Shown here: piece after piece, positions 45,656 through 62,078 of the stretch
How positions within the stretch are numbered: the stretch's first letter is position 1
Layout: each line of letters begins with the position of its first letter
Assembly: GCF_023824195.1 (NCBI RefSeq)
Contig: NZ_CP085444.1
Coordinates: forward strand, 50,001-114,000
Reading direction: 5' to 3'
Source: Priestia megaterium
Lineage (GTDB): Bacteria; Bacillota; Bacilli; Bacillales; Bacillaceae_H
Length of the DNA: 64,000 bases
Translations under genes and position numbers: made by a program
Notes under the pieces: model-generated
The model's database searches: none
The model's input: only the letters and a program-made list of their open reading frames with translations
What the model was told of the DNA's origin: nothing

Positions 45656-45730
45656 GGCGGTGTAGCCAAGTCGGTAAGGCAAGGGACTGCAAATCCTTGA
45701 TCCTAGGTTCAAATCCTAGCGCCGTCTCCA
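45656..45730 (+). tRNA. tRNA-Cys(GCA), copy 1
   Basis: Acceptor GGCGGTG pairs with CGCCGTC (two G-U); discriminator T as required for Cys; anticodon GCA in ACTGCAAAT; CCA encoded. Anticodon stem AGGGA/TCCTT has a G-U pair at the second position. Confidence 0.95.
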
Positions 45731-45800
45731 TTATCTTAAGAAATTAATTTGTATGAATTTAATATTTAGACTAAAGGGTATCCATTCATAAATATAAAAT

Positions 45801-45875
45801 GGCGGTGTAGCCAAGTCGGTAAGGCAAGGGACTGCAAATCCTTGATCCTAGGTTCAAATCCTAGCGCCGTCTCCA
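45801..45875 (+). tRNA. tRNA-Cys(GCA), copy 2
   Basis: Identical to copy 1, including the G-U pair in the anticodon stem. Confidence 0.95.
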
Positions 45876-45945
45876 TTATCTTAAGAAATTAATTTGTATG
45901 AATTTAATATTTAGACTAAAGGGTATCCATTCATAAATATAAAAT

Positions 45946-46020
45946 GGCGGTGTAGCCAAGTCGGTAAGGCAAAGGACTGCAAATCCTTGATCCTAGGTTC
46001 AAATCCTAGCGCCGTCTCCA
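45946..46020 (+). tRNA. tRNA-Cys(GCA), copy 3
   Basis: As copy 1, but the anticodon stem reads AAGGA, turning the G-U pair into A-U. Confidence 0.95.
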
Positions 46021-46090
46021 TTATCTTAAGAAATTAATTTGTATGAATTTAATATTTAGACTAAAGGGTATCCATTCATAAATATAAAAT

Positions 46091-46165
46091 GGCGGTGTAG
46101 CCAAGTCGGTAAGGCAAAGGACTGCAAATCCTTGATCCTAGGTTCAAATCCTAGCGCCGTCTCCA
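46091..46165 (+). tRNA. tRNA-Cys(GCA), copy 4
   Basis: Same as copy 3. The first protein gene of the cluster begins 25 bp after it, with no terminator between, so the tRNAs and the protein genes may share a transcript. Confidence 0.95.
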
Positions 46166-46190
46166 TTAAACTAAAGGGGTAGTGATTTAT

Positions 46191-47081
46191 ATGGCTGTAA
46201 CGAATAAATCTGGTATCAAATCAACTCATGAACTTGTAGAATCTGAAGAAAAGTTACTTAATCTAATTAGAAATGAGTTAAAAGTTAGCGAATATAAAGA
46301 TCTAGTTGTGATGGCGGGCCATTTCATGTTGTTCATGGATGAACATAAAAATGAACTGATTCCAGGGGTAATTGAAGAGCAGGATAATCAAATTATTAGA
46401 GAACGTGTTGAGCAAAGAGTGGGCATTTTCCCAAAATACACATGGGAACTTGGAGTTGAAATAGCAAAGGAATTCTCGGATGAATTTGACGAAAAGAAAT
46501 TTCTTTTACTAATTAATGACTGGCAATATGTACCTGCAAAGAATGTGTCAGCTAGTGAATTAAGGGCACAGTTCTATGAGAAATTTAGCTTTCCAACATC
46601 TTATATGAAAGTTCTAGAAAACTCTAAAGTATTCTCAGAGAGGAATATCCTAAAAAGTAGAAAGCATGACCTTGCATTTCCAGAAACATGGCTTAAATAT
46701 AGATTTCAAAAGAGTGCAAACAAACTCGTTAAAGAAGGTAAGTTAGAAAAGAAAGTTTTAAATAATCAAACTAAAGACTCAGAAGTTACATTTTTAGATG
46801 AGAACGGAAATTATAAAACCTTAATTAGTTGTGGAATTACAGGATGTGCCGGAGAAATTACTGAAATGATTTCTGAAGTTTACAAAGATGGAAAAAGACT
46901 AATGCTTGTATTTGCTCCAGGTGAGTGTTATCAGCCCGTTAAAACTGGGGTAGAAATAGCACTAAATCTTTACAAATTAACAGGCATGAAGATAATAATT
47001 GCAGATCCAGGTGGGAGTGGAGAAATGTCTAAAGAAGAAATCTATAGCAAAATGGTGAATTTTTCTGTTTTTGAAAGCTAA
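46191..47081 (+). CDS. Unknown protein at head of biosynthetic cluster, 296 aa
   Basis: The start at ATG 46191 is favoured by AAAGGGG 10 nt upstream; a GTG at 46182 is possible. No signal or membrane segment. The N-terminal half is helical and charged (TKSGIKSTHELV...WELGVEIAKEFSDEFDEKKFLLLINDWQYV). The C-terminal half is alpha/beta with Cys and Gly-rich turns, ISCGITGCAGEITEMI near residue 220 and FAPGECYQPVKTGVEIALNLY near residue 250, then IIIADPGGSGEMS. I do not recognise the family. The position between tRNA-Cys genes and a cysteine desulfurase makes cysteine or Cys-tRNA chemistry a possibility, without direct evidence. Confidence 0.8.
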   Translation: MAVTNKSGIKSTHELVESEEKLLNLIRNELKVSEYKDLVVMAGHFMLFMDEHKNELIPGVIEEQDNQIIRERVEQRVGIFPKYTWELGVEIAKEFSDEFDEKKFLLLINDWQYVPAKNVSASELRAQFYEKFSFPTSYMKVLENSKVFSERNILKSRKHDLAFPETWLKYRFQKSANKLVKEGKLEKKVLNNQTKDSEVTFLDENGNYKTLISCGITGCAGEITEMISEVYKDGKRLMLVFAPGECYQPVKTGVEIALNLYKLTGMKIIIADPGGSGEMSKEEIYSKMVNFSVFES

Positions 47082-47103: not shown

Positions 47104-48258
47104 ATGGGAATTTTATATTTAGATCATTGTGCTACAACTCCTTGTCACAAAGAAGTTATGGAAGTTATGCTAAAATATTTCAATTCAGAATTTGGAAATC
47201 CGTCTTCCTTGCATTTTTACGGAAAAAAAGCTTTACATGCAGTCAATAATGCCTCTCGACAAGTTGCTGAGATTATTGGTGCTCATACTGAAGAAATAAC
47301 TTTCACTTCTGGTGCCACAGAGAGCAATAATCTCTTTTTATTAGGATTATATGAATGGTTAAACAGAGTTAATGGAAACATTATTCTATGTCCCATAGAC
47401 CACAAATCTACCTTGGAAGTGGGAAAAGAACTTCAGAGGCGTGGAATTGATGTAAGGTACGGAAGAGTGGATGCCAAAGGACAAATAGATATAAATTTCC
47501 TAATGGATTTAATAGATCAAAATACCAAGTTATTAAGCATATCTCTTGTTAATTCAGAATTAGGCGTGATTCAAGATATAAAGACATTATCTAGCATTTG
47601 TAATGCTAAAAATATCCTACTACATGTAGATGCTGTACAAGCAATAGGTAAGATACCTGTTGACGTAAAGAAAATGAAAGTAGATGCTTTATCTTTATCA
47701 GGTCATAAAATTTACGGACCGAAGGGAATAGGTGCACTATTTATTGATAGATCTGTTAAACATTTGGTTAAACCATTAATGTTTGGCGGAGGACAGGACG
47801 TTCTTCGAAGTGGTACACTGCCCACTCCTCTTATTGTTGGATTAGGACATGCCTGTAGTTTAGCTCAAAAGCAAATAGATGAGCATCATACTAAGGTAAT
47901 AAATTTACGACAAGCTTTTATTAAGGCTTTACGAGAAGAGTTGGTAACGTTTGAGTTTAATAATGATATCTCAATTAGTATTCCGCATGTTCTTAATATA
48001 AGGATACCAAATGTTAGTTCAGAAACTTTGGTTTTAGGGCTAGGGGATGTTGCGATTTCCTCAGGATCAGCCTGTAATTCAAATAGTTTAGAGCCTTCCT
48101 ATGTACTTACTTCTATAGGATTAAGTGAAGAAGAAGCAAATAATTCTATAAGAATTTGTTTGAGCCCGGATTTAACAAATGAACAAATAAAAACAGCTGT
48201 CAAAATTTTAGGTAAAAAAATTAAAAATATAACACAATTGCAAGGAGAATTTGTATGA
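47104..48258 (+). CDS. Cysteine desulfurase (IscS/NifS family)
   Basis: 384 aa, PLP-dependent. YLDHCATTPCHKEVMEVM at the N-terminus, HVDAVQAIGKIPVDV in the PLP site, the Schiff-base Lys in SLSGHKIYGPKGIGALF, and the catalytic Cys in SSGSACNSNSLEPSYVL. All active-site elements are intact, so it should convert L-cysteine to L-alanine with persulfide transfer. No NifU/IscU-type scaffold or thiouridylase is adjacent; the partner is the D-Ala-D-Ala ligase gene, whose ATG overlaps the stop. In this cluster it may provide sulfur, or alanine, to the product. Confidence 0.9.
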   Translation: MGILYLDHCATTPCHKEVMEVMLKYFNSEFGNPSSLHFYGKKALHAVNNASRQVAEIIGAHTEEITFTSGATESNNLFLLGLYEWLNRVNGNIILCPIDHKSTLEVGKELQRRGIDVRYGRVDAKGQIDINFLMDLIDQNTKLLSISLVNSELGVIQDIKTLSSICNAKNILLHVDAVQAIGKIPVDVKKMKVDALSLSGHKIYGPKGIGALFIDRSVKHLVKPLMFGGGQDVLRSGTLPTPLIVGLGHACSLAQKQIDEHHTKVINLRQAFIKALREELVTFEFNNDISISIPHVLNIRIPNVSSETLVLGLGDVAISSGSACNSNSLEPSYVLTSIGLSEEEANNSIRICLSPDLTNEQIKTAVKILGKKIKNITQLQGEFV

Positions 48259-49184
48259 AGGTTATAGTTCTAGCAGGCGGTGATTCTTCTGAAAAAGAAA
48301 TCTCACTAAGGACCGGTGAGTGTGTTTATAACACTTTAATAGAACTTGGTTATCAGGTGGAAATGTGTTCAATTACCACTTTTAAAGATGTATTAAATTT
48401 AGAAATAGGGGATAATACTTTAATCTTCAATGCTTTACATGGTGGTTTTGGCGAAGATGGAACTTTACAGTCATACCTATCTTATCTTAATTTACCCTAT
48501 AACGGTGCAAACGCACTAGCTAGTTCGATAGGTATGAATAAAGAGGTGACTAAAAAATTAGCAAGTACAATAGGTATTTCAATTCCTAAGAGTATGTTAA
48601 TTACAAAAACAAGCATTTTAAGTTATGAGAAAGTGAAATATGTTTTGGGATCTAAATTTGTTCTGAAGCCTTTGTCTCAAGGGTGCAGCGTGGGTTTATA
48701 TTATGTAACTTCTAAAGAAGAGTACGACACTTTTATACCACAGGCATTAGAAATTGAGGAAAGTGTCATTTTAGAAGAATTTATTACAGGCATCGAGATT
48801 ACGGTAGGAATGCTAGGAGAGGAGATCCTTCCTCTTGTGGAAATTAAACATAACCATGATTTATTTGACTATGAAAGTAAATTTACTCCTGGAATGTCCC
48901 GATTTATCGAATGTGAATTACCGGAAAAAATGCAAAAAAATATTCAAAAACAGTCTAAAGAATTCTTTAATTTATTAGATATAACAGATTACGCTCGATT
49001 AGATTTTATTGTAGATGAGTCCGGGAAAGCATATTTATTAGAATTAAATACTCTGCCTGGCTTGAATACCAGTAGTCTTTATCCTGTAGCTTGTAAATTC
49101 ATGATGTTAGATTATAAAGAAATGATGCAGCGATTGGTTCAATTAATTGCGATAAAAAAAGGTCATACGCAAAGTGTCGGCTAA
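48255..49184 (+). CDS. D-alanine--D-alanine ligase (Ddl)
   Basis: 309-aa ATP-grasp ligase joining two D-Ala for peptidoglycan. N-terminal LAGGDSSEKEISLRTG, HGGFGEDGTLQ, the omega-loop KPLSQGCSVGLYY, and DYARLDFIVDESGKAYLLELNTLPGLNTSSLYP with metal ligands. Start overlaps the upstream stop (ATGA). Its presence in a biosynthetic cluster, together with an alanine racemase at the far end, suggests a resistant or surplus copy of a product target, as DcsI does in D-cycloserine clusters. Confidence 0.9.
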   Translation: MKVIVLAGGDSSEKEISLRTGECVYNTLIELGYQVEMCSITTFKDVLNLEIGDNTLIFNALHGGFGEDGTLQSYLSYLNLPYNGANALASSIGMNKEVTKKLASTIGISIPKSMLITKTSILSYEKVKYVLGSKFVLKPLSQGCSVGLYYVTSKEEYDTFIPQALEIEESVILEEFITGIEITVGMLGEEILPLVEIKHNHDLFDYESKFTPGMSRFIECELPEKMQKNIQKQSKEFFNLLDITDYARLDFIVDESGKAYLLELNTLPGLNTSSLYPVACKFMMLDYKEMMQRLVQLIAIKKGHTQSVG

Positions 49185-49286: not shown

Positions 49287-50204
49287 ATGGATACCAAAAT
49301 TTATGATATAATAAAACAGGTATTAGATAGAAATATTTTGGATGAAAAGTTAAAAAAATACATATGTAATTGCATGTTAAAAAAACAAAGTGAAGGTTTT
49401 TTATTTAGTCAACTCATAGAAATACATTATAAGTTATTTGGCGGGGATTCTGAAGGTGAAATAATTAATATTTCTGCAGCTCTTGAATGCTTACTTTTAT
49501 CCTTAGATATAATTGACGATATACAAGATGAAGACGATATAAGTTCATCATTATTTGATATGGAAAATGCAAATCTCTTAAATGTTTCTACATTACTTAT
49601 GTTCATTTCTCAACAGTTATTAAATGAATGTAGTTCTCCGTTCAAAAAAAATATAACGACTTATTATACAACTTTAACTATGAGAGGAATTGAAGGACAA
49701 CATTTAGACATAAATAATGTGTTGGCAGATGAAAATAATTACATAGATATGGTAGGGAAGAAATCAGGTTCTTTTACTGCTTTAGCTGCATTAATAGGTA
49801 CTGCTTTAGCTACTGACGTATATCCATACAGCTCAATTTTAGATTATTCTATAGATATAGGGATCGCTAGTCAATTGCTCAATGATGCAATTGATATTCA
49901 AAGAATAGAAGAAAAAAACGATATTTTCAAAAAAAAGATTACGTTACCTATAATTTTTATATTAGGTCATCCTAACTCTAAATTAAAACTGCTTAAATCG
50001 TATGTTAATGAAGAAATCAATTATGACAATTTACTTCTGCAAAAACAGACTTTACTCCAGGAAATTACAGACTCTAAGGCAATAGAATATACTATGCTCC
50101 AAAGAGAATTTTATTTACAGCGAGCCCTTAACACTATTGAATCTATTAATTTTCCAAGACCTGAACTTAAACCTAAACTTATAGAATTTGTGAAAGGAAG
50201 ATAA
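49287..50204 (+). CDS. comQ: ComQ-like isoprenyl transferase
   Basis: 305-aa member of the polyprenyl synthetase fold. The first Asp-rich motif is DDIQD at residues 77-81 in LDIIDDIQDEDD; the second region (SQLLNDAIDIQR) is the reduced form usual for ComQ. ComQ cleaves the ComX precursor and attaches a farnesyl or geranyl group to its Trp. The ComX-like gene starts 3 bp downstream and ComP/ComA homologues follow, the canonical order. Ribosome site AGAGGCGGAT. Confidence 0.85.
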   Translation: MDTKIYDIIKQVLDRNILDEKLKKYICNCMLKKQSEGFLFSQLIEIHYKLFGGDSEGEIINISAALECLLLSLDIIDDIQDEDDISSSLFDMENANLLNVSTLLMFISQQLLNECSSPFKKNITTYYTTLTMRGIEGQHLDINNVLADENNYIDMVGKKSGSFTALAALIGTALATDVYPYSSILDYSIDIGIASQLLNDAIDIQRIEEKNDIFKKKITLPIIFILGHPNSKLKLLKSYVNEEINYDNLLLQKQTLLQEITDSKAIEYTMLQREFYLQRALNTIESINFPRPELKPKLIEFVKGR

Positions 50205-50206: not shown

Positions 50207-50374
50207 ATGAAAGAATTACTGTACTATTTAAGTGAAAATCCTGATATTCTGGAGTTAGTGAAAGAAGGAAAAGCGAGTTTAATTTTCAATTCCGATTTAG
50301 GCATTAAAGTAGAAACTATAATTGACATTTTAATTAATAATTCAGTTGATATAACAGCGAGTTATTGGAAATAG
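50207..50374 (+). CDS. comX: ComX-like pheromone precursor, 55 aa
   Basis: Too short for most ORF lists. MKELLYYLSENPDILELVKEGKASLIF matches the leader of ComX precursors, and the C-terminus ends ...VDITASYWK, with the single Trp two residues from the end, where ComX is prenylated. AAGGAAG lies before the ATG, at the end of comQ. A terminator follows. The mature pheromone would be the last 6-10 residues; the exact cut is unknown. The pherotype is new to me. Confidence 0.85.
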   Translation: MKELLYYLSENPDILELVKEGKASLIFNSDLGIKVETIIDILINNSVDITASYWK

Positions 50375-50448: not shown

Positions 50449-52728
50449 ATGGAAAAAAGACACTATGTTTTGATAATAACATGTTTGATATATTCACTGA
50501 TATTTACTTACTTTGGAAAAATAATTATAAATCAACCTTATATAGGAGTTGAACTTAATAAAAAAGAAGGAGTTTTGTTCGTTGAAAAAATATATGCAAA
50601 TAGTTGGGGGGAACAATACTTAAAAAAGGGTGATATCATTGTTACTAAACATTATAAGGGTTTAGATAATCTTGAAGGTATGAAGAATTTAACAATTTAT
50701 AGAGGTAAGGAAATTTTAAATTTTAAAGTTAGTTACCATAAGCTTCCTGATCAAATTCTTTTTCAAATAGTCATTCCTTTTATTTTCTTATTTATTTGTT
50801 TAACATTTAGTATCATCTTGCTTCTACGAGGAAAATGGAATAAACCTAAAATGTATACAATTTGTTTCTTTCTAGTGGTATCTTTAGGCTACTTAAGTGC
50901 TAGTGGTTCGTCTAGAGAGGATTTTATTTCACGATTTATTAGTGGTCTTTGTTTATCGATCGTACCATACTTGTTAGTTCATCTTTTGTATCAGTATTTT
51001 AAAAAATCAGATATTAAAGCTTTGACTACTGTTAGCTTATATTTAGCATATACATTATGTTTATTCATAGGCATTTTAGAATTCTTTCCTTTGACGTCAT
51101 CATTTAAAAATTACATATCTTCAATACAGTTATTTATTTTTGGTATTGGAACTTTTTATTTAATTACTATTATTTTTAGTTACTATAATAAATTAAAAAG
51201 CCTGAAAGATGGGCCAATTATTCGTATAATTTTAATTAGTCTTATGGTATCTTTTTTACCCATTATTTTATTTTATATTTTACCAATTGTGATTTTTCAT
51301 CATACGCTCTTGAGTGCAGAAATAGCTATTTCTTCAATGATGGTATTGCCTTTTTCCCTATTTTATCTGAATTTTAAAAGTGTTTACTTTGACGTGGACT
51401 TCTTGATACAAAGAATAAAATATTATTCTTTAGCATCTATATTATTTGTTTTAATAATTTTACTATTTAGCATCAATGTCAAAAATAATTTTACTTCCCT
51501 GTTTTTATTTGGATTGCTATTACTTGTATGTTTTAATATTCTATTGTTTTTTTATGGGAACTTGCAGCTTATTTTTAATAAAAACAGTAAATTTAATTAC
51601 CAAGATAGTTTGTACAATTTCACCAGAAAATCTAAAAAAATATTAAGTTTTCAAGATTTAATTTATTTTATTGAAAAAGAAGTTAAAGTTGGATTGAGAA
51701 TACCTCAGATTGTTCCTTTTAAATTAAGCAAAGAAAATGGGACTTGCACTGACTTAACTTTGGACTGTAAATACATAAATATTCTCTATAATAATGTGTT
51801 AGATTTAGAAAAAAACAAAAAACTCTTTGATAAAGTTATAGATGTACATAATGAATTGTATTTAGTTCTTGGTGAAGAGAATAATGAATTTGTTGTCTTA
51901 TACATTGATCGCTCTCATACAAAAGTAAAACTTAATATTCAAGAAAAAAAATGGCTTAATACCCTTATGTATTATGCTAATATTATTTTTGAAAATCTAA
52001 AGAAAGTAGATGCCTTACTTTTAGAAATTGAGAATTTAAAAAGAGACAAAACTTATTACCCCTACTGGATGGCGCAATTGTTTTGTCGGATTTCCGAAAA
52101 AGAACGTGCAAATTTAGCTAATGATATTCATGATAATATCTTACAGGATCAATTATTGTTGTATAGAAAATTTGAAGAAATAGCAAATGATAAAAATTTG
52201 GTCAGCAATTTAACCCAATCAGATATTACATTTTTTAGAGAAATGATCCTAGATAATATTTACTTAATCCGAGAAACTTGTAACCATTTAAAGCCTGCTT
52301 TTTTAAAGGAATTAGGGATTGTAGAAGCTTTAAAAAATTTGATTGATAAGATTCAATTGCACTCCAATTTCGAAATTGAATATTACTTTGATGAATTAGA
52401 GTGTTTAGATGACGAAACCTCTATAAATTTGTATCGAATTATTCAAGAGTTACTAAATAATGCTATTAAGCATTCTGAAGCCACTAAGGTTATTATAACC
52501 CTACAGCGCCAGGAACCAATGGTCTGTCTAAACTACAGGGATAATGGGATAGGGTTTAATAACGAAAATAAAAATAAGGTAAATAAAACTATAGGATTAT
52601 CCAGTATTAAAGAAAGAGCACATGCTTTAAAAGGCAGCGTTACTTTTACTTCGACCCCTAAAAAAGGTTTACAAGTTTCAGTTTCATTCAGTCTAGATAA
52701 CCTTCCCGAGATAGGAGTAACTGTATGA
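50449..52728 (+). CDS. comP: ComP-like sensor histidine kinase
   Basis: 759 aa. One N-terminal helix, a small extracellular PDZ-like part (IGVELNKKEGVLFVEKIYANSWG...), then seven or eight further helices to about residue 380: the multi-span sensor typical of ComP. The HisKA_3 motif ANDIHDNILQDQL has His561, and the HATPase domain shows IIQELLNNAIKHS and DNGIGF. The kinase would phosphorylate the adjacent ComA when the modified ComX peptide is bound. Its stop overlaps the response regulator start by 4 nt. Confidence 0.88.
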   Translation: MEKRHYVLIITCLIYSLIFTYFGKIIINQPYIGVELNKKEGVLFVEKIYANSWGEQYLKKGDIIVTKHYKGLDNLEGMKNLTIYRGKEILNFKVSYHKLPDQILFQIVIPFIFLFICLTFSIILLLRGKWNKPKMYTICFFLVVSLGYLSASGSSREDFISRFISGLCLSIVPYLLVHLLYQYFKKSDIKALTTVSLYLAYTLCLFIGILEFFPLTSSFKNYISSIQLFIFGIGTFYLITIIFSYYNKLKSLKDGPIIRIILISLMVSFLPIILFYILPIVIFHHTLLSAEIAISSMMVLPFSLFYLNFKSVYFDVDFLIQRIKYYSLASILFVLIILLFSINVKNNFTSLFLFGLLLLVCFNILLFFYGNLQLIFNKNSKFNYQDSLYNFTRKSKKILSFQDLIYFIEKEVKVGLRIPQIVPFKLSKENGTCTDLTLDCKYINILYNNVLDLEKNKKLFDKVIDVHNELYLVLGEENNEFVVLYIDRSHTKVKLNIQEKKWLNTLMYYANIIFENLKKVDALLLEIENLKRDKTYYPYWMAQLFCRISEKERANLANDIHDNILQDQLLLYRKFEEIANDKNLVSNLTQSDITFFREMILDNIYLIRETCNHLKPAFLKELGIVEALKNLIDKIQLHSNFEIEYYFDELECLDDETSINLYRIIQELLNNAIKHSEATKVIITLQRQEPMVCLNYRDNGIGFNNENKNKVNKTIGLSSIKERAHALKGSVTFTSTPKKGLQVSVSFSLDNLPEIGVTV

Positions 52729-53378
52729 TTAATATTTTGATTGTTGACGACCATCCAGCAGTAGCACAAGGTACAAAGTTTATTTTAGAGCAAAATGGAA
52801 AAGTCAAAGCTCATATAATTAATGATCCATTTGAAGTCTTGGAAAATATAAGTGAAAATGAATATGATATCGTCATATTAGATCTCCATATGCCGGGATT
52901 AAATGGCATTGATTTAGCAAAATTAATTAATCAAAAGTCAAAGGCAAAGATAATTATATATACAGGTTACGACGTAGAAAATTATTTTAATTTATTAATT
53001 GAATCAGGAGTAATAGGGTTTGTGAGTAAAGCATCTTCCGCGAACGGCTTAATAAATGCTGTAAATGGTGCATTAAATGATGAAGCAGTTATCCCTGTTA
53101 CTTTGTTAAGACAGCTTAGGAGAACCTCTTTAAAAATTCAAGGAGATCAAATGAACATCGACGTAACTATAAATGAAGAAGAACAAACTATACTAATAGA
53201 AATCGAAAAAGGTTCGACAAATAGGGAAATATCTCAAAAGTTACATGTTAGCCAAAGAACAATTGAGCATAGGCTAACAAGTATATTTCAAAAACTCAAT
53301 GTTAATTCTCGGGTTCAAGCAGTTCTAAAAGCTAAAGAACTAGGCCTAATCCCTAGTAATAAAACAATAAACTTATAA
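52725..53378 (+). CDS. comA: ComA-like response regulator
   Basis: 217 aa. Receiver domain: acidic pair VDDH at 8-10, phosphorylated Asp53 in VILDLHMPGLNG, and conserved Thr/Lys in IIIYTG and FVSKAS. C-terminal LuxR-type helix-turn-helix: NREISQKLHVSQRTIEHRLTSIFQKLNVNSRVQAV. Translationally coupled to the kinase. It should bind a TTGCGG/CCGCAA-type dyad; one candidate lies in front of the biosynthetic operon. Confidence 0.88.
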   Translation: MINILIVDDHPAVAQGTKFILEQNGKVKAHIINDPFEVLENISENEYDIVILDLHMPGLNGIDLAKLINQKSKAKIIIYTGYDVENYFNLLIESGVIGFVSKASSANGLINAVNGALNDEAVIPVTLLRQLRRTSLKIQGDQMNIDVTINEEEQTILIEIEKGSTNREISQKLHVSQRTIEHRLTSIFQKLNVNSRVQAVLKAKELGLIPSNKTINL

Positions 53379-53411
53379 ACCTTCCTTCTGAAAAAGGGAG
53401 GTTTTTTTTTA
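53377..53411 (+). terminator. Terminator after comA
   Basis: AACCTTCC pairs with GGGAGGTT (one G-U), followed by a run of T. Confidence 0.8.
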
Positions 53412-53518: not shown

Positions 53519-53908
53519 ATAGATAATAAAATTGGCACAGATATTATTGAAATTAATAAAATTAAGGAATCAGTAAATGCTTTCGGTGATAAGTACTTAA
53601 AAAAAATATTTACAACTAAAGAAATCCAATACTGTATGAAATACAAAAAAAACTATGCTCAGCATCTAGCTGCTAGATTTGCTGCGAAAGAGGCAGTAAT
53701 TAAAATTTTAGAGCCTCTAAATGAAGTTATTCACTTCAAAGATATAGAAATAGTAAGGTATTCCAACGGTTCATGTAAGGTTGAGCTTCATGGAAATGCA
53801 AAAAAATTAGCCATGGAGAGAAATATAAATTATACATCAGTTAGTCTAAGTCATGAAGAGAAATATGCAATAGCTATGGTTTTAGTAAGTACATATAAAA
53901 AGGAGTAA
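53519..53908 (+). CDS. Holo-ACP synthase (4'-phosphopantetheinyl transferase, AcpS type)
   Basis: 129 aa if read from codon 53519. KIGTDIIEINKIKESVNAFGDKYLKKIFTTKEIQYC is the complete AcpS N-terminus with the metal-binding Asp, and RFAAKEAVIKIL holds the Glu and Lys. No ATG, GTG or TTG lies in frame between the stop at 53510 and this conserved start; AAGGAAGGAG is placed correctly for initiation at ATA 53519. A normal ATG (53636) would delete the active-site Asp. Expected role: converting the adjacent carrier protein to its pantetheinyl form. Confidence 0.8.
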   Translation: MDNKIGTDIIEINKIKESVNAFGDKYLKKIFTTKEIQYCMKYKKNYAQHLAARFAAKEAVIKILEPLNEVIHFKDIEIVRYSNGSCKVELHGNAKKLAMERNINYTSVSLSHEEKYAIAMVLVSTYKKE

Positions 53909-53912: not shown

Positions 53913-54155
53913 ATGAAAGAAAAAATCATAAAAATATTAGATAAATACGGAAGATTAGTAATTGAGACTAAAGATTTAAAAGATAATACGGATTTATATG
54001 AGGTTGGGTTATCATCTCACGCTAGTGTAAATATATTACTTTCATTAGAAAATGAATTTGATATTGAGTTTCCTGATGACGTTTTAAACAAGAAAATGTT
54101 TTCTTCAATTAATAATTTAATAGAAGCTGTTGAATCAGTTACTGCAGTTAAATAG
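53913..54155 (+). CDS. Acyl carrier protein-like carrier
   Basis: 80 aa, acidic four-helix carrier. DLYEVGLSSHASVNILLSLENEFDIEFPDD contains the pantetheinylation region; alignment on FDIEFPD places the modified residue at Ser35. The GLSSHASVN wording is that of carriers paired with SerRS-like amino acid:carrier-protein ligases rather than fatty-acid ACP (DSL). It starts 4 bp after the AcpS gene and is followed by the dehydrogenase and ligase genes. Confidence 0.87.
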   Translation: MKEKIIKILDKYGRLVIETKDLKDNTDLYEVGLSSHASVNILLSLENEFDIEFPDDVLNKKMFSSINNLIEAVESVTAVK

Positions 54156-54167: not shown

Positions 54168-55343
54168 ATGCTTCTTCAAAAAAACAGTAAAGCTTATGTG
54201 TTGGAAAACTTAGAAGAAATCACTAAGGTGATGGGGCAATTTGCCGATGAGGTTGATAAAGAATGCAGATTTCCTATTGAAGCAATAAATAAAATGAAGG
54301 AGTATCATTTATTAGGAGCCTATATTCCTACAGATTTTGGTGGATTAGGTTGCTCAATTGAAGAGTTGGTTCAGATTGCAAAGTTACTTGGCAAGTATTG
54401 TGCCTCATCTGCGATGATTTGGGCTATGCATCAAATTCAGTTAATTTGTCTTGTACACCATCATGAAGAAAATGAGGCAGTAAAAAAGTACCTTACCAAG
54501 GCAGCCGATTATCAATATCTTATTGCTTCCATAACTTCAGAAGTCGGCACAGGGGGAGACATTAGTAGAAGTATCTGTGGAATTGAATGGAAGGAAGAGT
54601 ATTCTAAGTTATCTAAGAAAGCTTCCGTTATCTCTTATGGTAAATACGCTGATGCTTATTTAGTTACAGCAAGAAAAGGAATAAATGCTAGTGAAACAGA
54701 TCAACTACTTGTTTTGTGTGAACGGACAAATATAATTTCTGAACAAACAACGGAATGGGATACGCTGGGAATGAGAGGAACATGTAGTCCTGGATTCAAT
54801 ATTGAGGCTATCTTTCCTAATGATTTTGTACTTAACTTGCCATTTAAAGATATAGCAATACAATCTATGGTACCTGTTACACATATTTTATGGGCTGCTG
54901 TTTGGTATGGAGTTGCGGAAGCTGCTTTAGAAAAAGCACGAAATATGCATAAAAGAAACTATAAGCAACACTTAAAAGCCGGGCTTGCTACTTCCACTAA
55001 TTATGACCTAGTTGACTTGCAAAATAAGTTGTCACTTTTTAAAAACAACTTGCAAATTCATACACATAAATACCAAGAAATAAGCAAAAATTTAGACAGT
55101 AAATCTAATGAATTATATGAGATAGACTATTCTTTAGAAATAAACACCTTAAAGATTACTTCTTCAGAGATAGCTTTGGAAATTGTACAAAAATCTTTAT
55201 TTATTTGCGGAATTTTAGGTTACTTAAATAATACTCCTTCAAGTTTAGGAAGAAGTATTAGGGATATTATGTCTTCGATTGTGATGATAAATAATGATCG
55301 TTTATATGCCACGAACTCATCTTTATTATTATTATTAAAATAG
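54168..55343 (+). CDS. Acyl-CoA dehydrogenase-like flavoprotein
   Basis: 391 aa. YIPTDFGGLGCSIEELVQIAKLLGKYCASSAMIWAMHQIQ is the N-terminal helical domain. The middle domain (ASITSEVGTGGD..., GMRGTCSPGFNIEAI) and a C-terminal helical bundle follow. In this context the substrate is probably an aminoacyl or acyl thioester on the neighbouring carrier, as in prolyl-carrier dehydrogenases of pyrrole pathways. Oxidation of the alpha-beta bond is expected. Ribosome site TAGGAGG. Which residue acts as catalytic base is unclear by eye. Confidence 0.85.
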   Translation: MLLQKNSKAYVLENLEEITKVMGQFADEVDKECRFPIEAINKMKEYHLLGAYIPTDFGGLGCSIEELVQIAKLLGKYCASSAMIWAMHQIQLICLVHHHEENEAVKKYLTKAADYQYLIASITSEVGTGGDISRSICGIEWKEEYSKLSKKASVISYGKYADAYLVTARKGINASETDQLLVLCERTNIISEQTTEWDTLGMRGTCSPGFNIEAIFPNDFVLNLPFKDIAIQSMVPVTHILWAAVWYGVAEAALEKARNMHKRNYKQHLKAGLATSTNYDLVDLQNKLSLFKNNLQIHTHKYQEISKNLDSKSNELYEIDYSLEINTLKITSSEIALEIVQKSLFICGILGYLNNTPSSLGRSIRDIMSSIVMINNDRLYATNSSLLLLLK

Positions 55344-55365: not shown

Positions 55366-56280
55366 ATGAGTACAAATGTTTTAACAAATACTTTCTTAAC
55401 AGAGTTATTAGAAAAAGGGCATTTAATTTCTACAGGGGTAAAAGGAGTATACGGTAAAGGAAAAGAGATGAACCTTCTCCTAAAAAATATAGAGGATTTT
55501 ATATCTGGGTATGGACGGACAGAGGATACTGAAATCATGATGTTCCCACCAATTATGAATCAGGAAGATATTCAAAAAGCAGAATACCTTAAGTCTTTTC
55601 CTCACCTTTTAGGCAATGTACAATCCTTTCAAGGTAATGAGAATGACCACAAACAAATGATTACTACACTTGATAAGGGGAAGGATTGGAGTAAGCATTT
55701 TTCTAACAGTGGGGTAGTGATGACGCCTGCGGCTTGTTATCCCGTATATTCTCAATTAGCAAAAACAAAGGTTCCTTTAGGTGGAAGAACAATAGAAGTA
55801 GCCTCTTTTTGCTACCGTCATGAACCGTCTAATGAACCTACAAGAATGCAATCCTTTAGAATGTTAGAGTTTATTAAAGTAGGATCTAGCGATGAAGTGA
55901 AAGTTTGGCGTAAGGAATGGCTAGAAAAGGCACAAGCACTATTAGATCTCTTACAAGTCAACTATGAAGTTGTGATTGCTAATGATCCTTTTTTTGGCAG
56001 TGGAGGAAGGCTACTTAAGATTAATCAAAATCATCTGGAATTAAAATATGAAATCACTATTCCAATAAATGATGAGGAAGCGCCTACTGCAGTAATATCT
56101 TCTAACTATCATCAAGACCATTTTGCTAAAAAACATCAGATTTTAACTGAGACTGAAGATATGGCTCATACTTCATGTATAGGTTTTGGAATTGAAAGGC
56201 TAGGTTTAGCACTATTAAAACATCATGGTTTAGATACGAAAGAATGGCCAGCTAATTTGAAAACGTTACTAAATTTATAA
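55366..56280 (+). CDS. Amino acid:[carrier protein] ligase (truncated SerRS homologue)
   Basis: 304 aa, a class II aminoacyl-tRNA synthetase catalytic core without a tRNA-binding arm. Motif 2 is FCYRHEPSNEPTRMQSFRMLEF; motif 3 is HTSCIGFGIERLGLALL. Probable zinc ligands are Cys124 (AACYPVY), Glu168 and Cys271, as in the Bradyrhizobium enzymes and archaeal-type SerRS. Characterised relatives adenylate Gly or Ala and load a carrier protein's pantetheine arm. The substrate here is unknown. Tightly placed behind the carrier and dehydrogenase genes. Confidence 0.9.
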   Translation: MSTNVLTNTFLTELLEKGHLISTGVKGVYGKGKEMNLLLKNIEDFISGYGRTEDTEIMMFPPIMNQEDIQKAEYLKSFPHLLGNVQSFQGNENDHKQMITTLDKGKDWSKHFSNSGVVMTPAACYPVYSQLAKTKVPLGGRTIEVASFCYRHEPSNEPTRMQSFRMLEFIKVGSSDEVKVWRKEWLEKAQALLDLLQVNYEVVIANDPFFGSGGRLLKINQNHLELKYEITIPINDEEAPTAVISSNYHQDHFAKKHQILTETEDMAHTSCIGFGIERLGLALLKHHGLDTKEWPANLKTLLNL

Positions 56281-56297: not shown

Positions 56298-57269
56298 ATG
56301 AATAAATATATGTTAATCGGTACCGTTGCTCTCATATCATCTGCTTTACTTACTTCTATTAATCAAGTGCTTTACGCAAAATGGGTTCAGAATATGAACC
56401 CATTTGTATATAGTTTTTTGAGTTTTTCCTTAACTTTATTATTTTTCTTGATTATCACTTGTATAGTATCTCTTAAAAACAAACAAAATAAGGATAAGAC
56501 TAAAGAGAATAAGAAAAATGAGATAAGTTATATATTAATTCTTAATACTATTACCGCAATAATTTTTATATGTTTTTACTATGCTAATAAATTTATAGAG
56601 CCAGCCATTGTAAGTTCTATAGAGATTGGTATAGGTCCCATAATTGCTCTTAGTATAGGATTACTATTAAAAAATATAAAATTATTGAAAGTAGATGTGG
56701 CAGTATGTATAGGTATTTTATTAGGAACCTGCATATTAGTGTGGGCATCCATAACAGGAGCATCAGGAGTAAATGTACAAATAACTAATACTTTAAACGG
56801 TTTAATAACTTCTTTTATTGCTGGAATTGGTATGGTCCTAGCTACACTCTACTCAAAAAAACTTAGCGAATTGGGGTGGACGACATTTAAAATTTTAGCT
56901 CATCGCTTTTATATGCTTGTTCCACTATCATTCATCCTCGTTTTAAATCAAAACTTTGATGATATTATTCAAGTATTTTTAAATAATTGGTTATTAATTA
57001 CCATATTTACTTTTTTAGGGCTTGTTATTCCTTTATATCTCATTCAAGTAGGGATAAAACATTGCAACCCTTTATTTGTTGCAGTAACAATGTCCTGTGG
57101 ACCTGTTTTTACTTTCTTATTTCAATTGATTGACCCGCGAGTGGAGTGGTCTTGGACATCATTGTCTGGAATCGTAATCATATGTTTATTTGTAGTACTA
57201 AAAGTTTTATATCAAAAGCAAGGGTTAAAAGTAGAGAGTGTGGAAGGAGAAACAATAAAACATGCATAA
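56298..57269 (+). CDS. EamA-family (DMT) exporter of the cluster
   Basis: 323 aa, ten helices in two repeats; INQVLYAKWVQNMNPFVYSFLSFSLTLLFF and AIVSSIEIGIGPIIALSIGLLL are EamA-like. Ribosome site TGAGGAGGTA. Its stop overlaps the ATP-grasp start by 8 nt, so it is firmly part of the operon and the best candidate for product export and self-protection. BacE/YfmO-like roles in dipeptide antibiotics are comparable but use other families. Confidence 0.85.
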   Translation: MNKYMLIGTVALISSALLTSINQVLYAKWVQNMNPFVYSFLSFSLTLLFFLIITCIVSLKNKQNKDKTKENKKNEISYILILNTITAIIFICFYYANKFIEPAIVSSIEIGIGPIIALSIGLLLKNIKLLKVDVAVCIGILLGTCILVWASITGASGVNVQITNTLNGLITSFIAGIGMVLATLYSKKLSELGWTTFKILAHRFYMLVPLSFILVLNQNFDDIIQVFLNNWLLITIFTFLGLVIPLYLIQVGIKHCNPLFVAVTMSCGPVFTFLFQLIDPRVEWSWTSLSGIVIICLFVVLKVLYQKQGLKVESVEGETIKHA

Positions 57270-58539
57270 AGATCAATTTTGTGTCATTGTAGATGCTTAT
57301 TCAACAGGTAATCAGTTATATAACCATTTTAATCAGTATGGCTATACTGTAATACACGTACAAAGTTCCAAAGAAATATCTCCAATATTTGAACCTTCAT
57401 TTAGAAGAAAAGATTTTACTATCAATATTATTCATAATGGTAATTTAAAGGAAACTGTAGCAATTATTAGAAAATATGAACCTAGTTTTATTGTACCTGG
57501 GGCAGAAACTGGTGTAGAACTAGCTAATGAGATAGCTAAAGAATTAAATCTTAAACGTAATGATGATGATAAAGTACATGCTCGACGAAATAAATATTTA
57601 ATGAATGAGATCATTAGAGAGAAAGGATTACCTACTGTAGAACAAATTAAAACAGGAGACTTAATCAAAGCAAAAGAGTGGGCAGTAAGACTAAATAAAT
57701 GGCCATTAGTAGTAAAGCCCCTACATAGTGCTGCTTCAGATGGTGTTAATTTTTGCCACAACAAGGAAGGTTTAGATCATGCATTCAATGAATTAGTGAA
57801 TAAAAGAAATTCCTTAGGAATCCTTAATGATGAAATCCTTGTTCAACGCTATTTAGACGGGCAGCACTATGTAGTGAATGCAATTACTTACGAAGGAAAG
57901 CATTTTATTACTGATATTTGGACTCAAGAATTTCATAAAGGAGCAGGTGTAACAGTTATTTACGATAGCATTAGTTTGGTTCCTTATAATGATGTTAAAC
58001 ATGCAGAAATCGTAAGGTATGTAAAATCGACTATCGATGCTTTAGGAGTCAAATATGGGCCTACTCATACTGAATTAAGACTAACTGAAGAGGGCCCTCG
58101 TTTAATAGAAGTTAATTGTAGAACAATGGGACTTTCCTTAAAAGAGGAGATAATCTCTGAAGCTTTATCTTATAGTTATAGCTCCCTTACCGCAGATTGC
58201 TATGCTAATCCCGAAAAAATAGTCAATTTAGTGTCAAAGAACAAAATGTACAAGATTAACAACTATATATCTTTAGTTTTTCTTATTACAAGTCAAGAAG
58301 GGATTATTGATGATATTCCTGGGCTTAAATTTTTAGAGTCACTGCCCTCCTTTGGAGATGTTCAACTAAATGTAAAAAAAGACGATGAATTAAAGAAAAC
58401 TATAAATGTAGAAACTCACCCTGGTTTTATCCTTTTTACTAGTGACTCTCCAACTCAAATTGAGTCGGACTATAGAAAGTTACGAGATTTAGAAAATAAA
58501 AACTTGTTTTTTAAAACAAAGGAGCTAGTTCTAAATTAA
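57262..58539 (+). CDS. ATP-grasp ligase (amino acid / dipeptide ligase-like)
   Basis: 425 aa. The N-terminal Rossmann-like domain is followed by the ATP-grasp core: WPLVVKPLHSAASDGVNFC, ILVQRYLDGQHYVVNAITY, and the metal site TELRLTEEGPRLIEVNCRTMG. This is the pattern of BacD/TabS/RizA L-amino-acid ligases and carnosine-synthase-type enzymes, which activate a carboxylate as acyl phosphate and join it to an amine. It would make an amide or ring closure in the product. Start codon overlaps the exporter stop. Confidence 0.85.
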   Translation: MHKDQFCVIVDAYSTGNQLYNHFNQYGYTVIHVQSSKEISPIFEPSFRRKDFTINIIHNGNLKETVAIIRKYEPSFIVPGAETGVELANEIAKELNLKRNDDDKVHARRNKYLMNEIIREKGLPTVEQIKTGDLIKAKEWAVRLNKWPLVVKPLHSAASDGVNFCHNKEGLDHAFNELVNKRNSLGILNDEILVQRYLDGQHYVVNAITYEGKHFITDIWTQEFHKGAGVTVIYDSISLVPYNDVKHAEIVRYVKSTIDALGVKYGPTHTELRLTEEGPRLIEVNCRTMGLSLKEEIISEALSYSYSSLTADCYANPEKIVNLVSKNKMYKINNYISLVFLITSQEGIIDDIPGLKFLESLPSFGDVQLNVKKDDELKKTINVETHPGFILFTSDSPTQIESDYRKLRDLENKNLFFKTKELVLN

Positions 58540-58598: not shown

Positions 58599-59345
58599 AT
58601 GCATAATTATTTTGAATGTCACAACTATAATCCTAATTCAACTATCTCTTTATTTTGTTTTCCCCATGCTGGAGGTGGGGCGGATATCTATTACGATTGG
58701 TCAAATTTTATAAGACCTGAAATAAATATCTACATCCTCAACTTGCCTGGAAGAGGGAAAAAATATTTAGAAAAGCCTTTTGAAGAATTTAACGTATTAT
58801 TAGATAATCTGCTTATAGACATAGAAGATTTGCTTGATAAACCTTTTATTATTTTTGGTCATAGTATGGGTGCGCTTATAGGTTTTGAACTAAGCAGACG
58901 TATATTTGAAATGTATAATAAGAAACCTGAACATTTGTATGTTTCTAGCTATCCATCACCCGAAATTATCAATAATAATTTAGTAGAAAATAATATTTCT
59001 GATGATGAATTAATCACCAAGTTAAAGGAGCTAAATGGTACCCCAAAAGAAATATTTCAACATAAAAGATTTTTAAAACTACTATTACCAGTTATAAGAG
59101 CTGATTTTAAACTATTAAACTCGTATAGTTATAAAGAGCTAGCTCCTCTTTCTTGTCCTATTACTAGTATTATAGGTAGCCATGACAACATAAGTGTTGA
59201 GTTAGCAAAGGAGTGGTATAAACACTCGGTAGCAGTATTCTCTTTGCAAATATTTAGAGGGGATCATTTTTACCTTAACAATTTCGAGGCAAAGAAAAAG
59301 ATTGGGAAATTAATCGAAAAGGATTTTATGAAAATTAATAATTGA
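58599..59345 (+). CDS. Type II thioesterase
   Basis: 248-aa alpha/beta hydrolase of the GrsT/SrfAD type. FCFPHAGGGADIYYDWSNFI at the N-terminus; nucleophile Ser89 in GHSMGALIGFELSRR; SYPSPE lid start; catalytic Asp in IGSHDNIS and His in GDHFYLNN. It could release the finished acyl group from the carrier or clear misloaded thioesters. Ribosome site AGAGGG. Begins 59 bp after the ligase gene. Confidence 0.9.
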   Translation: MHNYFECHNYNPNSTISLFCFPHAGGGADIYYDWSNFIRPEINIYILNLPGRGKKYLEKPFEEFNVLLDNLLIDIEDLLDKPFIIFGHSMGALIGFELSRRIFEMYNKKPEHLYVSSYPSPEIINNNLVENNISDDELITKLKELNGTPKEIFQHKRFLKLLLPVIRADFKLLNSYSYKELAPLSCPITSIIGSHDNISVELAKEWYKHSVAVFSLQIFRGDHFYLNNFEAKKKIGKLIEKDFMKINN

Positions 59346-59394
59346 TACCATTATCTATTTTTATTAATCGTTATAGCATAATTAAAAGGAGAAT

Positions 59395-60798
59395 ATGATG
59401 GAAAATGAGAATAATATAAAACAATTACATAGGGGATTAGAAGAAAGACATATTACGCTAATGTCTTTAGGTGCGGCGATTGGGGTAGGCTTATTTCTAG
59501 GCTCTGCTTCGGCTATTAAATTAGCTGGACCTGGGATTTTGTTAGCATATTGTTTTAGTGGATTAGTAATGTTTTTTATTATGAGGGCACTTGGGGAGAT
59601 GGCAATTCAAAATCCAGTGGCCGGTTCGTTTAGTAAATATGCTCGTGAATATGTGAGTCCATTTGTTGGTTATTTAACAGGTTGGAATTATTGGTTCTTA
59701 TGGATCCTTACATGTATGGCCGAAATTACAGCAGTAGGCATTTACATGGAATATTGGTTTCCAGATATCCCCCGTTGGATATGGGCCCTCAGCGCTTTAA
59801 TTATTATGACATTAGTAAATTTTATAGCTGTTAAGGCTTATGGAGAGTTAGAGTTTTGGTTTGCATTAATCAAGGTCGTTACTATTATATTAATGATTTT
59901 AGTGGGTGTTGGAATGATTTTAGTAGGTCTTGGGAATGGTGGCATTGCTACTGGTATTCAGAACCTATGGAATCATGGAGGCTTTTTCCCGAACGGGATA
60001 GAAGGAGTATTAATGTCTCTCCAAATGGTAATGTTTGCTTATCTAGGAATTGAAATGATCGGAGTTACGGCTGGAGAAGTAAAAAATCCTCAAAAATCTT
60101 TATCTAAAGCTATAGACGCCGTGTTTTGGAGAATTCTTATTTTCTATGTGGGTGCTTTATTCGTTATTATGTCTATCTATCCTTGGACAGAGATCGGTAC
60201 AAAAGGGAGCCCCTTTGTATTGACATTTGATAAAATTGGTATTCCAGGAGCAGCCGGTATTATCAATTTTGTTGTATTAACTGCAGCTTTATCGTCTTGT
60301 AATAGTGGAATTTTTAGTACAGGACGAATGCTATTTAATTTAGCTCAACATGGGGAGGCATCCAATAAATATAAGTACCTTACAAAGAGTGGAGTACCTG
60401 GAAAGGCAGTTTTAGCTTCTGCTTGTATCCTACTAATTGGTGTTCTTTTAAACTATATTGTTCCAGCTAAAGTATTTACTTGGGTAACAAGTATCGCAAC
60501 TTTTGGCGCGATTTGGACATGGGCAATTATTTTAATAGCACAAATCAGATATCGCCGAGGTTTAAATGCAGAGCAAGTTAAGTTACTAAAGTACAAGTTG
60601 CCTTTATTTCCTTACACCTCATATATATCTTTAACTTTTTTATTTGTAGTAGTAGTTCTCATGGCTTACTTCCCTGATACAAGAGTTGCTTTAATTGTTG
60701 GTCCAATTTGGTTTGGGTTTTTAATAGTACTTTATTATATAAAAGGATTTCATAAAAAAAATAAAACTAAAGTTGAAATAGATCAACACGTTAGTTAA
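59395..60798 (+). CDS. AAT-family amino acid permease (CycA-like)
   Basis: About 467 aa, 12 helices. GLEERHITLMSLGAAIGVGLFLGSASAIKLAGPGILLAY, the AYGELEFWFALIKV block and NHGGFFPNG resemble E. coli CycA, the D-Ala/D-Ser/Gly and D-cycloserine carrier. It could import a precursor or re-import a D-amino-acid. The ribosome site AAAAGGAGAA precedes ATG 59398; an ATG 3 nt upstream is equivalent. A strong terminator follows. Confidence 0.83.
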   Translation: MMENENNIKQLHRGLEERHITLMSLGAAIGVGLFLGSASAIKLAGPGILLAYCFSGLVMFFIMRALGEMAIQNPVAGSFSKYAREYVSPFVGYLTGWNYWFLWILTCMAEITAVGIYMEYWFPDIPRWIWALSALIIMTLVNFIAVKAYGELEFWFALIKVVTIILMILVGVGMILVGLGNGGIATGIQNLWNHGGFFPNGIEGVLMSLQMVMFAYLGIEMIGVTAGEVKNPQKSLSKAIDAVFWRILIFYVGALFVIMSIYPWTEIGTKGSPFVLTFDKIGIPGAAGIINFVVLTAALSSCNSGIFSTGRMLFNLAQHGEASNKYKYLTKSGVPGKAVLASACILLIGVLLNYIVPAKVFTWVTSIATFGAIWTWAIILIAQIRYRRGLNAEQVKLLKYKLPLFPYTSYISLTFLFVVVVLMAYFPDTRVALIVGPIWFGFLIVLYYIKGFHKKNKTKVEIDQHVS

Positions 60799-60842
60799 AA
60801 ATTAGGGGATACTTTGCTTAAAGTTATCCCCTAATTTTTATA
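60797..60842 (+). terminator. Terminator of the main biosynthetic operon
   Basis: AAAAATTAGGGGATA pairs with TATCCCCTAATTTTT (bulged), about 15 bp. Confidence 0.88.
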
Positions 60843-60893
60843 TTCTAATCGAAAATAAATATCTTATTTATTCTTAACTTAGGAGTGGTAAGT

Positions 60894-62078
60894 ATGGGCA
60901 TTTTTTATGGTAGAAATACAGTTATTGAAATAAATTTAGACAATTTTGTGTACAACTTTAATCAATTTAGAAAACATATTCCAAGCGATATAAATATTAT
61001 GGCCTCCCTTAAAGCAAATGCATATGGGCATGGAGTTTTACCTCTTGCTAAACAGTTAATCTCTTTAGGAGTTAAGCATCTAGCCGTGGCTTTTATTGAT
61101 GAAGGAATTGAACTTAGAGAGGGTGGAATTGAGAATGATGTAGATATCTTAATTTTTGGATATACTCCCCCGGAAGCTGTTGAGGAAGCCATAATGTATA
61201 ATTTAAGTATAACTGTCTATAGACCTGAAGACTTGCATCTTATACAGGAAACAGCTCGTAGACTTGACCGCAGAGCGCTAATACATATAAAAATTGATTC
61301 AGGTATGAGTAGACTTGGCCTACAGTTAGAAGAATTAGATTTATTTTTCAACACATTATTGCACATGAATTTTGTTAAAATAGAGGGGATATTTACACAT
61401 TTTGCTTGCGCAGACGAGAAAGATCAGTCTTATACTCAGATGCAGCAAGATATTTTTAAGGAAGCGTTAAATACAGCAATGAAGTTAGGGCTAGAAATCC
61501 CTTACATTCATTCTTCTAACAGTGCTGCCTCTATAGATATTAATAATACAATAGGGAATATGGTTCGTTTAGGAATTGGCTTATATGGTTTATACCCCTC
61601 TAAGGAAGTTAATCATAATGTAGTTAATTTACGTCCTATTTTAACTTTCAAGTCAAGGATATCTCATATAAAGCAAGGGGAAAAAAATAGAGGAGTAGGG
61701 TATGGTGCTACTTATAAGGCAACAGGAAAAGAGTGGATTGCCACTATTCCTGTCGGATACGCAGATGGGTTAAATAGACAATTATCCAATAAAGGATATG
61801 CTTTAATAAAAGGGAAAAGGGTTCCTATTATTGGACGTATATGTATGGATCAACTTATGTTAGACGTTACAAAAGTTATGCCTGTTCAAATGAATGAGGA
61901 AGTTGTGTTTTATGGAAGTCAAGAAGAAGAGACTATTCATATAGATGAAATTGCTAAATCTCTAAACACTATTAATTACGAAGTTACGTGTATGTTAAGT
62001 AGGAGAATACCACGACTCTTCAGATATAAAGGAAAAGTTACCCATGTAATTAATGAGTTAAGGAGACAAACACTTTAA
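60894..62078 (+). CDS. Alanine racemase (Alr)
   Basis: About 394 aa. PLP Lys40 in MASLKANAYGHGVLPLAKQL, SGMSRLGLQ, THFACADEKD, SNSAAS, RLGIGLYGLYP and the second catalytic residue region GVGYGATYKA are all present. Start ATG 60894 (AGGAGTGG); GTG 60885 is an alternative. It follows the terminator, so it has its own promoter. It interconverts L- and D-Ala. With Ddl at the other end of the cluster, it suggests that the product interferes with D-alanine metabolism or contains a D-Ala-like unit. Confidence 0.92.
   Translation: MGIFYGRNTVIEINLDNFVYNFNQFRKHIPSDINIMASLKANAYGHGVLPLAKQLISLGVKHLAVAFIDEGIELREGGIENDVDILIFGYTPPEAVEEAIMYNLSITVYRPEDLHLIQETARRLDRRALIHIKIDSGMSRLGLQLEELDLFFNTLLHMNFVKIEGIFTHFACADEKDQSYTQMQQDIFKEALNTAMKLGLEIPYIHSSNSAASIDINNTIGNMVRLGIGLYGLYPSKEVNHNVVNLRPILTFKSRISHIKQGEKNRGVGYGATYKATGKEWIATIPVGYADGLNRQLSNKGYALIKGKRVPIIGRICMDQLMLDVTKVMPVQMNEEVVFYGSQEEETIHIDEIAKSLNTINYEVTCMLSRRIPRLFRYKGKVTHVINELRRQTL

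Follow-up and report, generated by a model that had tools for sequence, protein, structure and literature searches.

The SepRS/SepCysS pathway is a tRNA-dependent route to cysteine, in which a pyridoxal phosphate (PLP) enzyme acts with tRNA-Cys. The abstract of a 2026 review (PMC12945691) counts five lineages of natural-product enzymes that use aminoacyl-tRNA (AlaRS-like, IleRS-like, GNAT-fold, cyclodipeptide synthase and LanB-like), to which passages of PMC2922099 add a MetRS paralogue. Cyclodipeptide synthases (CDPS; AlbC family) accept charged tRNA (parts of PMC12945691 and PMC2922099) and carry a catalytic Ser in a GxSxxp motif after the first strand (part of PMC2922099). The DNA analysed here, referred to as the window, is a 64,000-nucleotide stretch of Priestia megaterium (positions 50001-114000 of a 126,504-base contig; genome 5.98 Mb), in which dedicated tRNA-Cys genes precede a gene of the Pfam family LPD16 and a cysteine desulfurase gene. 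The locus is read as a plasmid cluster for small-molecule synthesis, in which two separable modules, A and B, flank a ComQXPA signalling set and LPD16 would use the charged cluster tRNA; this reading as a whole is given a probability of about 0.45.

Module A opens with four tandem tRNA-Cys(GCA) genes on the plus strand (45656-45730, 45801-45875, 45946-46020 and 46091-46165), arranged in a 145-bp repeat unit. These genes were missed in a preliminary description of the cluster, although it began at 45656, their first base. A gap of 25 bp, with a Shine-Dalgarno-like AAAGGGG in it, separates the last of them from the start codon (ATG) of LPD16 (46191..47081, plus strand; 296 aa), so that the array and LPD16 look co-transcribed. 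The next gene encodes a cysteine desulfurase of the IscS/NifS type (47104..48258, plus strand) with an active-site Cys (SSGSAC) and a PLP-Lys motif, which scored below the cut-offs of the IscS/NifS equivalog models. It is followed by a Ddl-like ATP-grasp ligase (48255..49184, plus strand; family match). Higher-scoring Ddl and Alr genes sit elsewhere in the genome, and those of the cluster are second copies; the cluster Ddl is 33% identical to the LPD16-linked Ddl of a Pandoraea locus (L122) and 30% to the other Ddl of its own genome. On the far side of the array a divergent EamA/DMT transporter (44634..45596, minus strand; family match) possibly exports the module A product.

The window belongs to a Priestia plasmid: an equal gene set lies on plasmid p-LAD4 of Priestia aryabhattai (NZ_CP072477.1; 126,990 bases), where comX and acpS are among the annotated genes. 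The three proteins compared with p-LAD4 were 99.7% (ligase), 99.7% (LPD16) and 100% (flavoprotein, 98% covered) identical, and nucleotides 45600-49200 were 99.9% identical over 98%. The two near-identical plasmids differ in the number of tRNA-Cys copies, two in p-LAD4 (L099 8575-8794) and four in the window plasmid. All genes named in the preliminary description were found in the order given and on the plus strand, from LPD16 through Alr, in agreement with the p-LAD4 annotation, and that annotation likewise held no nonribosomal peptide synthetase or polyketide synthase module in the corresponding stretch, as had been claimed.

Seven LPD16 loci were opened: the window, p-LAD4, L107, L124, L122, L115 and L116. 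The desulfurase was adjacent to LPD16 in all seven, a tRNA lay upstream in five and Ddl was present in three; the active-site Cys loop and PLP-Lys motif of the desulfurase were kept in 5/5 distinct loci. The two Priestia loci share tRNA-Cys (four and two copies), LPD16, desulfurase and Ddl. Locus L107 (G369) has tRNA-Cys followed by LPD16 (69% identity), desulfurase (51%) and an EamA transporter that is 26% identical to the p-LAD4 counterpart of the divergent transporter. Between the intact tRNA-Cys and LPD16 of L107 a decayed second tRNA-Cys copy was read by eye (9886-10141). In L124 (G880), whose contig starts 549 bases before LPD16, a tRNA-Cys is separated by 34 bp from LPD16 (74%) and desulfurase (65%). 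In L122 (G683; LPD16 reads as P0228, named Pandoraea terrae) a tRNA with an ACC anticodon lies 30 bp before LPD16 (49%), followed by desulfurase (42%), Ddl (33%) and EamA. Downstream of this Pandoraea operon (13853-16658) a B12-radical SAM protein (TIGR04434) and a cystathionine-lyase-like PLP enzyme were noted. The two loci of the genus Burkholderia, L115 (G438) and L116 (G442), carry LPD16 (62%), desulfurase (48-49%) and a methyltransferase. This cassette was observed between trpE and trpG (L115 6933-9831; L116 6875-9775); the flanks of L115 are anthranilate synthase component I and a class-I glutamine amidotransferase, and the same translations flank L116. LPD16, the unknown protein of the preliminary description, is thus more than an incidental neighbour.

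The fold predicted for LPD16 is class I synthetase-like, with ArgRS as the best structural relative in the model search and CysRS next; when a second model was searched against BFVD a viral arginine-tRNA ligase was again the top match (E 8.6e-6). A sequence-profile search of PDB gave nothing better than a malic enzyme (E 0.0073), and Pfam returned LPD16 only and NCBIfam no match. Neither the HIGH (HxGH) nor the KMSKS pattern occurred in any of 45 aligned LPD16 sequences, while GHxMLF was present in 43 of them. Residues C214, C219 and C246 were invariant in 19/19 sequences and in the 45-sequence alignment, so that a sulfur or thioester role is possible. The 120 proteins listed, of 151 in the family, span Bacillota, Pseudomonadota and Actinomycetota, and the carriers listed also include Photorhabdus, Xenorhabdus, Nonomuraea, Pseudomonas and B. 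pseudomycoides. Counted per genome sample, with the window's own genome included where it was sampled, LPD16 was found in 2/397 (order) and 1/16 (family, the window's own genome), and in 0/3, 0/3, 2/65, 3/398 (including those two) and 2/398 of further samples. In the plasmid search p-LAD4 was the sole match. An origin as a phage protein was considered and rejected: a search of 50,697 phage records gave no match, and of 42 pattern hits in viral contigs not one was confirmed.

Two other tRNA-Cys genes (L002 on C1 and L003 on C2) were located in the genome by similarity search. Their mutual identity is 93%, and their identity with the cluster copies 77-80%; the cluster copies are 87-88% identical to the LPD16-linked tRNA-Cys of L124, as would be predicted for a tRNA that moves along with LPD16. 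CysRS identity is set by U73 and the GCA anticodon, and both are kept in the LPD16-linked tRNAs of Bacillota. U33 is needed for ribosomal decoding. When 129 ARAGORN calls over the fetched loci were reduced to 46 distinct sequences (the first printed 50 bases being compared), position 33 was T in 44; the exceptions were the tRNA-Cys of L124 (G33) and the tRNA of L122 (C33), both LPD16-linked. All 25 tRNAs of the window kept T at this position. The L122 tRNA scored 37.7 bits in Rfam and was 79% identical to Priestia tRNA-Ala and 65% to tRNA-Gly, with a G3:U70 pair read by hand. Background tRNA density in 80 loci of the module B ligase was 7 in 1,477,206 bases. In PLSDB 65 records matched 45600-49200; a single one covered at least 80% of it, and the 14 further records among the 15 listed covered 9-10%. 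A lone tRNA-Cys was seen on a B. velezensis plasmid (L125 10001-10080) among unrelated genes with no LPD16 nearby, and a plasmid tRNA-Cys alone is therefore not diagnostic. B. subtilis plasmids also gave hits of this sort.

Since LPD16 combines a predicted synthetase fold without ATP motifs with a dedicated tRNA, its most likely role, by analogy with CDPS, would be to unload the charged cluster tRNA, whose amino acid would pass to a small acceptor. In module A the dedicated tRNA-Cys would be charged by the cell's own CysRS, and LPD16 would take the amino acid off this aminoacyl-tRNA with no ATP activation and place it on the acceptor; the desulfurase would supply the product with sulfur (or alanine), and the Ddl-like ligase would lengthen it. 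The second-copy Alr and Ddl and the AlaP permease point to alanine or D-alanine, either in supply or in protection. The use of charged tRNA and every chemical step proposed here are inferred.

The predicted model makes LPD16 resemble the CDPS in being small, stand-alone and class I synthetase-like, with charged tRNA as its presumed substrate. It differs from them in that its nearest structural relatives are ArgRS and then CysRS, the CDPS being closest to TyrRS/TrpRS (a passage of PMC12945691), and in lacking the catalytic Ser of GxSxxp and having linked tRNA genes and desulfurase. The pattern [AG]GxS was found at residues 31-60 in none of the 45 sequences, and on this single motif LPD16 does not qualify as a CDPS; no CDPS stood among the 50 structural matches listed, which excludes nothing. 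MshC, the mycothiol cysteine ligase, works without tRNA (part of PMC2922099), and LPD16 is unlike both MshC and CysRS in having neither HxGH nor KMSKS. AcmF (AlaRS-like) and SbzA (IleRS-like) are synthetase-like natural-product enzymes that use charged tRNA, as is proposed for LPD16; LPD16 would belong to another synthetase lineage, and a dedicated tRNA combined with a desulfurase did not appear in the passages of PMC12945691 consulted. The word "desulfurase" is absent from the text of PMC12945691, PMC2922099 contains no "cysteine desulfurase", "NifS", "arginyl" or "tRNA gene", and the parts of PMC9437257 that cover MshC and the amino acid:[carrier protein] ligases contain no "ArgRS". Search listings from open-licence PMC, which omits most subscription papers, contained no description of the LPD16/tRNA/desulfurase module. 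The cluster is like SepRS/SepCysS in pairing tRNA-Cys and a PLP enzyme, the PLP enzymes being of one broad class; here, however, the desulfurase is IscS-type with its own active-site Cys, and no SepRS-like gene was present among the annotated neighbours.

Module B, on the other side of the ComQXPA set, is of an already known kind. All of its genes lie on the plus strand. It begins with an AcpS-type phosphopantetheinyl transferase (53519..53908) with an apparent ATA start at 53519, taken from the p-LAD4 annotation, so that open reading frame callers limited to ATG, GTG and TTG cut off its first third. The carrier protein (53913..54155) and the SerRS-like amino acid:[carrier protein] ligase (55366..56280) passed the curated cut-offs of PRK07081 (91.7 against 72 bits) and PRK07080 (393.3 against 357 bits) and stand in an adjacent triad with an acyl-CoA dehydrogenase (ACAD)-superfamily flavoprotein (54168..55343; family match and PDB relatives). 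Residues 22-304 of the ligase align with the solved Bll0957 (E 7e-69 and 9e-68). Ligases of this family, whose primary paper is Mocibob 2010, load Gly or Ala, a loading also given in a table of PMC9437257. The triad is followed by an EamA-family transporter, probably an exporter (56298..57269; family match), a DdaF-like ATP-grasp L-amino acid ligase (57262..58539; closest PDB relative 30vh, E 5e-60), a type II thioesterase (58599..59345; family match), an amino acid permease, AlaP in p-LAD4 (59395..60798; family match), and a second-copy alanine racemase (60885..62078; 43% identical to the other Alr).

The ligase family is large, with 7,053 of 7,998 scored candidates matching at E <= 0.001; in the sample of 397 genomes the ligase was found in five, namely the window's own genome and four in which its identity was 24-31%. 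Eighty ligase loci were fetched with the ligase alignment and their flanks of up to 10 kb searched at E <= 1e-4. Carrier and flavoprotein both had matches in 75/80; the five loci without both partners were L024, L042, L044, L051 and L076, in three of which (L024, L044 and L076) the match lay near a contig end, and in L023 the carrier was on the opposite strand. Other matches were AcpS in five loci, a ComP-like kinase (28%) in one and an ATP-grasp protein (28%, about 10 kb away) in one; LPD16, desulfurase, Ddl, EamA, thioesterase, permease and Alr had none in the 80. The triad, considered as the new element of this locus, was rejected on these counts. What sets module B apart from Bll0957-type loci, whose ligase and carrier families it shares, is that EamA, L-amino acid ligase, thioesterase and Alr genes stand in one run with them. 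The nearest relatives of the ATP-grasp protein (57-65%) and of the ligase (65-67%) were listed with equal longest contigs (9842 and 10010), and each set includes a 17-member Bacillus cluster; these equal contigs or member counts (protein pairs P0002/P0244, P0004/P0245 and P0003/P0243) suggest that a module B-like unit of ligase and L-amino acid ligase is conserved in B. cereus-type bacteria.

In the flavoprotein H239, N376 and R378 were invariant in 78/78 sequences (the window and 77 of loci L019-L098). His239 and Asn376 stand about where acyl-CoA dehydrogenases of the MCAD/IVD type carry their catalytic Glu; a dehydrogenase activity is thus questionable, and the chemistry of this family may have been mis-assumed in annotation. 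In favour of a dehydrogenase, the best PDB relative is butyryl-CoA dehydrogenase, and in a run with the Brevibacillus relative the PDB chain 7p98, named acyl-CoA dehydrogenase, reads IYTGT and likewise has no Glu at the MCAD-type place. Monooxygenases/nitrososynthases (DnmZ, 3mxl and DszC) are more distant PDB relatives. Module B would start from a carrier charged with Gly or Ala by the SerRS-like ligase; the flavoprotein would modify the carrier-bound amino acid and the thioesterase would free it; the L-amino acid ligase would couple it to a partner, EamA would export the product, and Alr, Ddl and the permease would provide D-Ala and/or shield the host.

Several results weigh against this two-module reading. 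Plain Foldseek alignments of LPD16 with ArgRS were loose (TM 0.38-0.42, root-mean-square deviation 10-13), and hhalign with E. coli CysRS and ArgRS as single-sequence templates found no sequence-level similarity. RVGI(F)P was equated with HIGH, and GGSGE with KMSKS, by reading the elements one against the other and not by a computed superposition. No tRNA was detected by ARAGORN or Rfam near either Burkholderia LPD16 locus. The Priestia cluster tRNA-Cys shares 84% identity with the B. velezensis plasmid copy, which is not linked to LPD16, and the L107 tRNA is 77-79% identical to other linked tRNA-Cys and 76-80% to the Priestia non-cluster ones. The linked tRNAs of Priestia and L107 keep U33 and could be translated, and the count of 44 in 46 would look better than it is if ARAGORN missed U33-less tRNAs elsewhere. 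The Pandoraea-linked tRNA is Ala-like, and the amino acid may therefore differ. Transfer RNA genes are also frequent integration sites. Finally, in the loci opened the modules are independent of each other (none of L107, L124, L122, L115 and L116 had a triad match) and occur together only in Priestia; they may therefore make different products, a single joint product being an inference.

There is a fair chance that LPD16 is a new class of enzyme. A bolder and rather unlikely form of the proposal is that it founds a class of ArgRS-fold, ATP-independent aminoacyl-tRNA enzymes with its own, partly non-decoding tRNA, in which the desulfurase passes sulfur to the LPD16 cysteines, these cleave the aminoacyl ester of the dedicated tRNA, and the resulting sulfur-bearing amino acid (e.g. 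an amino thioacid) is built by the Ddl-like ligase into an exported D-Ala-type antimetabolite. If LPD16 does use charged tRNA, charged tRNAs would be diverted from protein synthesis into metabolites by a new route, and the known lineages would gain one that brings along tRNA genes of its own, in part non-decoding, with tRNA, LPD16 and desulfurase as a handle for genome mining. A function would also be suggested for a Pfam domain named only "polyvalent protein-associated".

The alternative that survives best, though unlikely, is self-protection, in which Ddl, Alr, desulfurase and the extra tRNA-Cys are spare targets of an Ala- or Cys-like antimetabolite that module B makes, with LPD16 as a tRNA-related detoxifier (e.g. 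one that strips a wrongly loaded analogue). Alr, Ddl and other PLP enzymes are targets of cycloserine-type compounds, Ddl and Alr are both second copies here, and LPD16-desulfurase with the methyltransferase of Burkholderia or the EamA of L107 would also suit resistance cassettes. A U33-less spare tRNA (L124, L122) should not, however, rescue translation; the LPD16-desulfurase pair recurs with no biosynthetic triad alongside, and the cluster Ddl is slightly nearer to its Pandoraea-linked counterpart than to the other Ddl of its genome. Still less probable is a sulfur relay, with sulfur passing from the desulfurase to the LPD16 cysteines for thiolation of the dedicated tRNA or its aminoacyl group. 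The invariance of C214, C219 and C246 and the retention of the desulfurase active-site Cys in all five distinct loci would fit such a relay; LPD16 matched no known thiolase family, the kind of linked tRNA differs between Bacillota and Pandoraea, and the Burkholderia loci lack one. The model of the preliminary description, one quorum-controlled pathway on a carrier protein that includes alpha-beta oxidation, under which the tRNAs (as an integration site) and LPD16 would be incidental, is the least probable, for although triad, carrier, AcpS and L-amino acid ligase are all intact, the ligase and ATP-grasp relatives share equal longest contigs and the top PDB match of the flavoprotein is a dehydrogenase, LPD16-linked tRNAs occur in 4/5 distinct contexts, with tandem copies and loss of U33 in two, and the flavoprotein lacks the expected Glu. 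Its carrier, ligase, ATP-grasp and ComQXPA families and the ACAD superfamily stand; the oxidation is questionable, and the triad is no hallmark.

Between the modules, on the plus strand, lie a ComQ-like prenyl transferase (49287..50204; PF00348), a 55-aa ComX pheromone precursor ending in TASYWK (50207..50374; annotated as comX in p-LAD4, no NCBIfam match), a ComP-like membrane sensor kinase (50449..52728; family match) and a ComA-like response regulator (52725..53378; family match), so that the set is of the ComQXPA type, with its genes in order and a Trp near the end of the short ComX. From its position it may control the flanking operons. A terminator-like hairpin on the plus strand (53377..53404) lies after comA and before acpS; the scan gave 8 such sites against 6.7 expected, which is not above chance. 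An imperfect palindrome (ATTGCCG-N11-CGGTAAT, 53428-53452), which may be a regulator site but is not significant, lies upstream of acpS; shuffles matched the pattern, which was drawn from this site itself, in 74/100 with up to two mismatches.

Elsewhere on the plasmid, the 3' end of a 23S rRNA and one 5S rRNA occupy window positions 1-2467, accompanied by 21 tRNA genes. A T-box leader was located at 31102-31316 (134.9 bits) and a ZMP/ZTP riboswitch at 21615-21693 on the minus strand.

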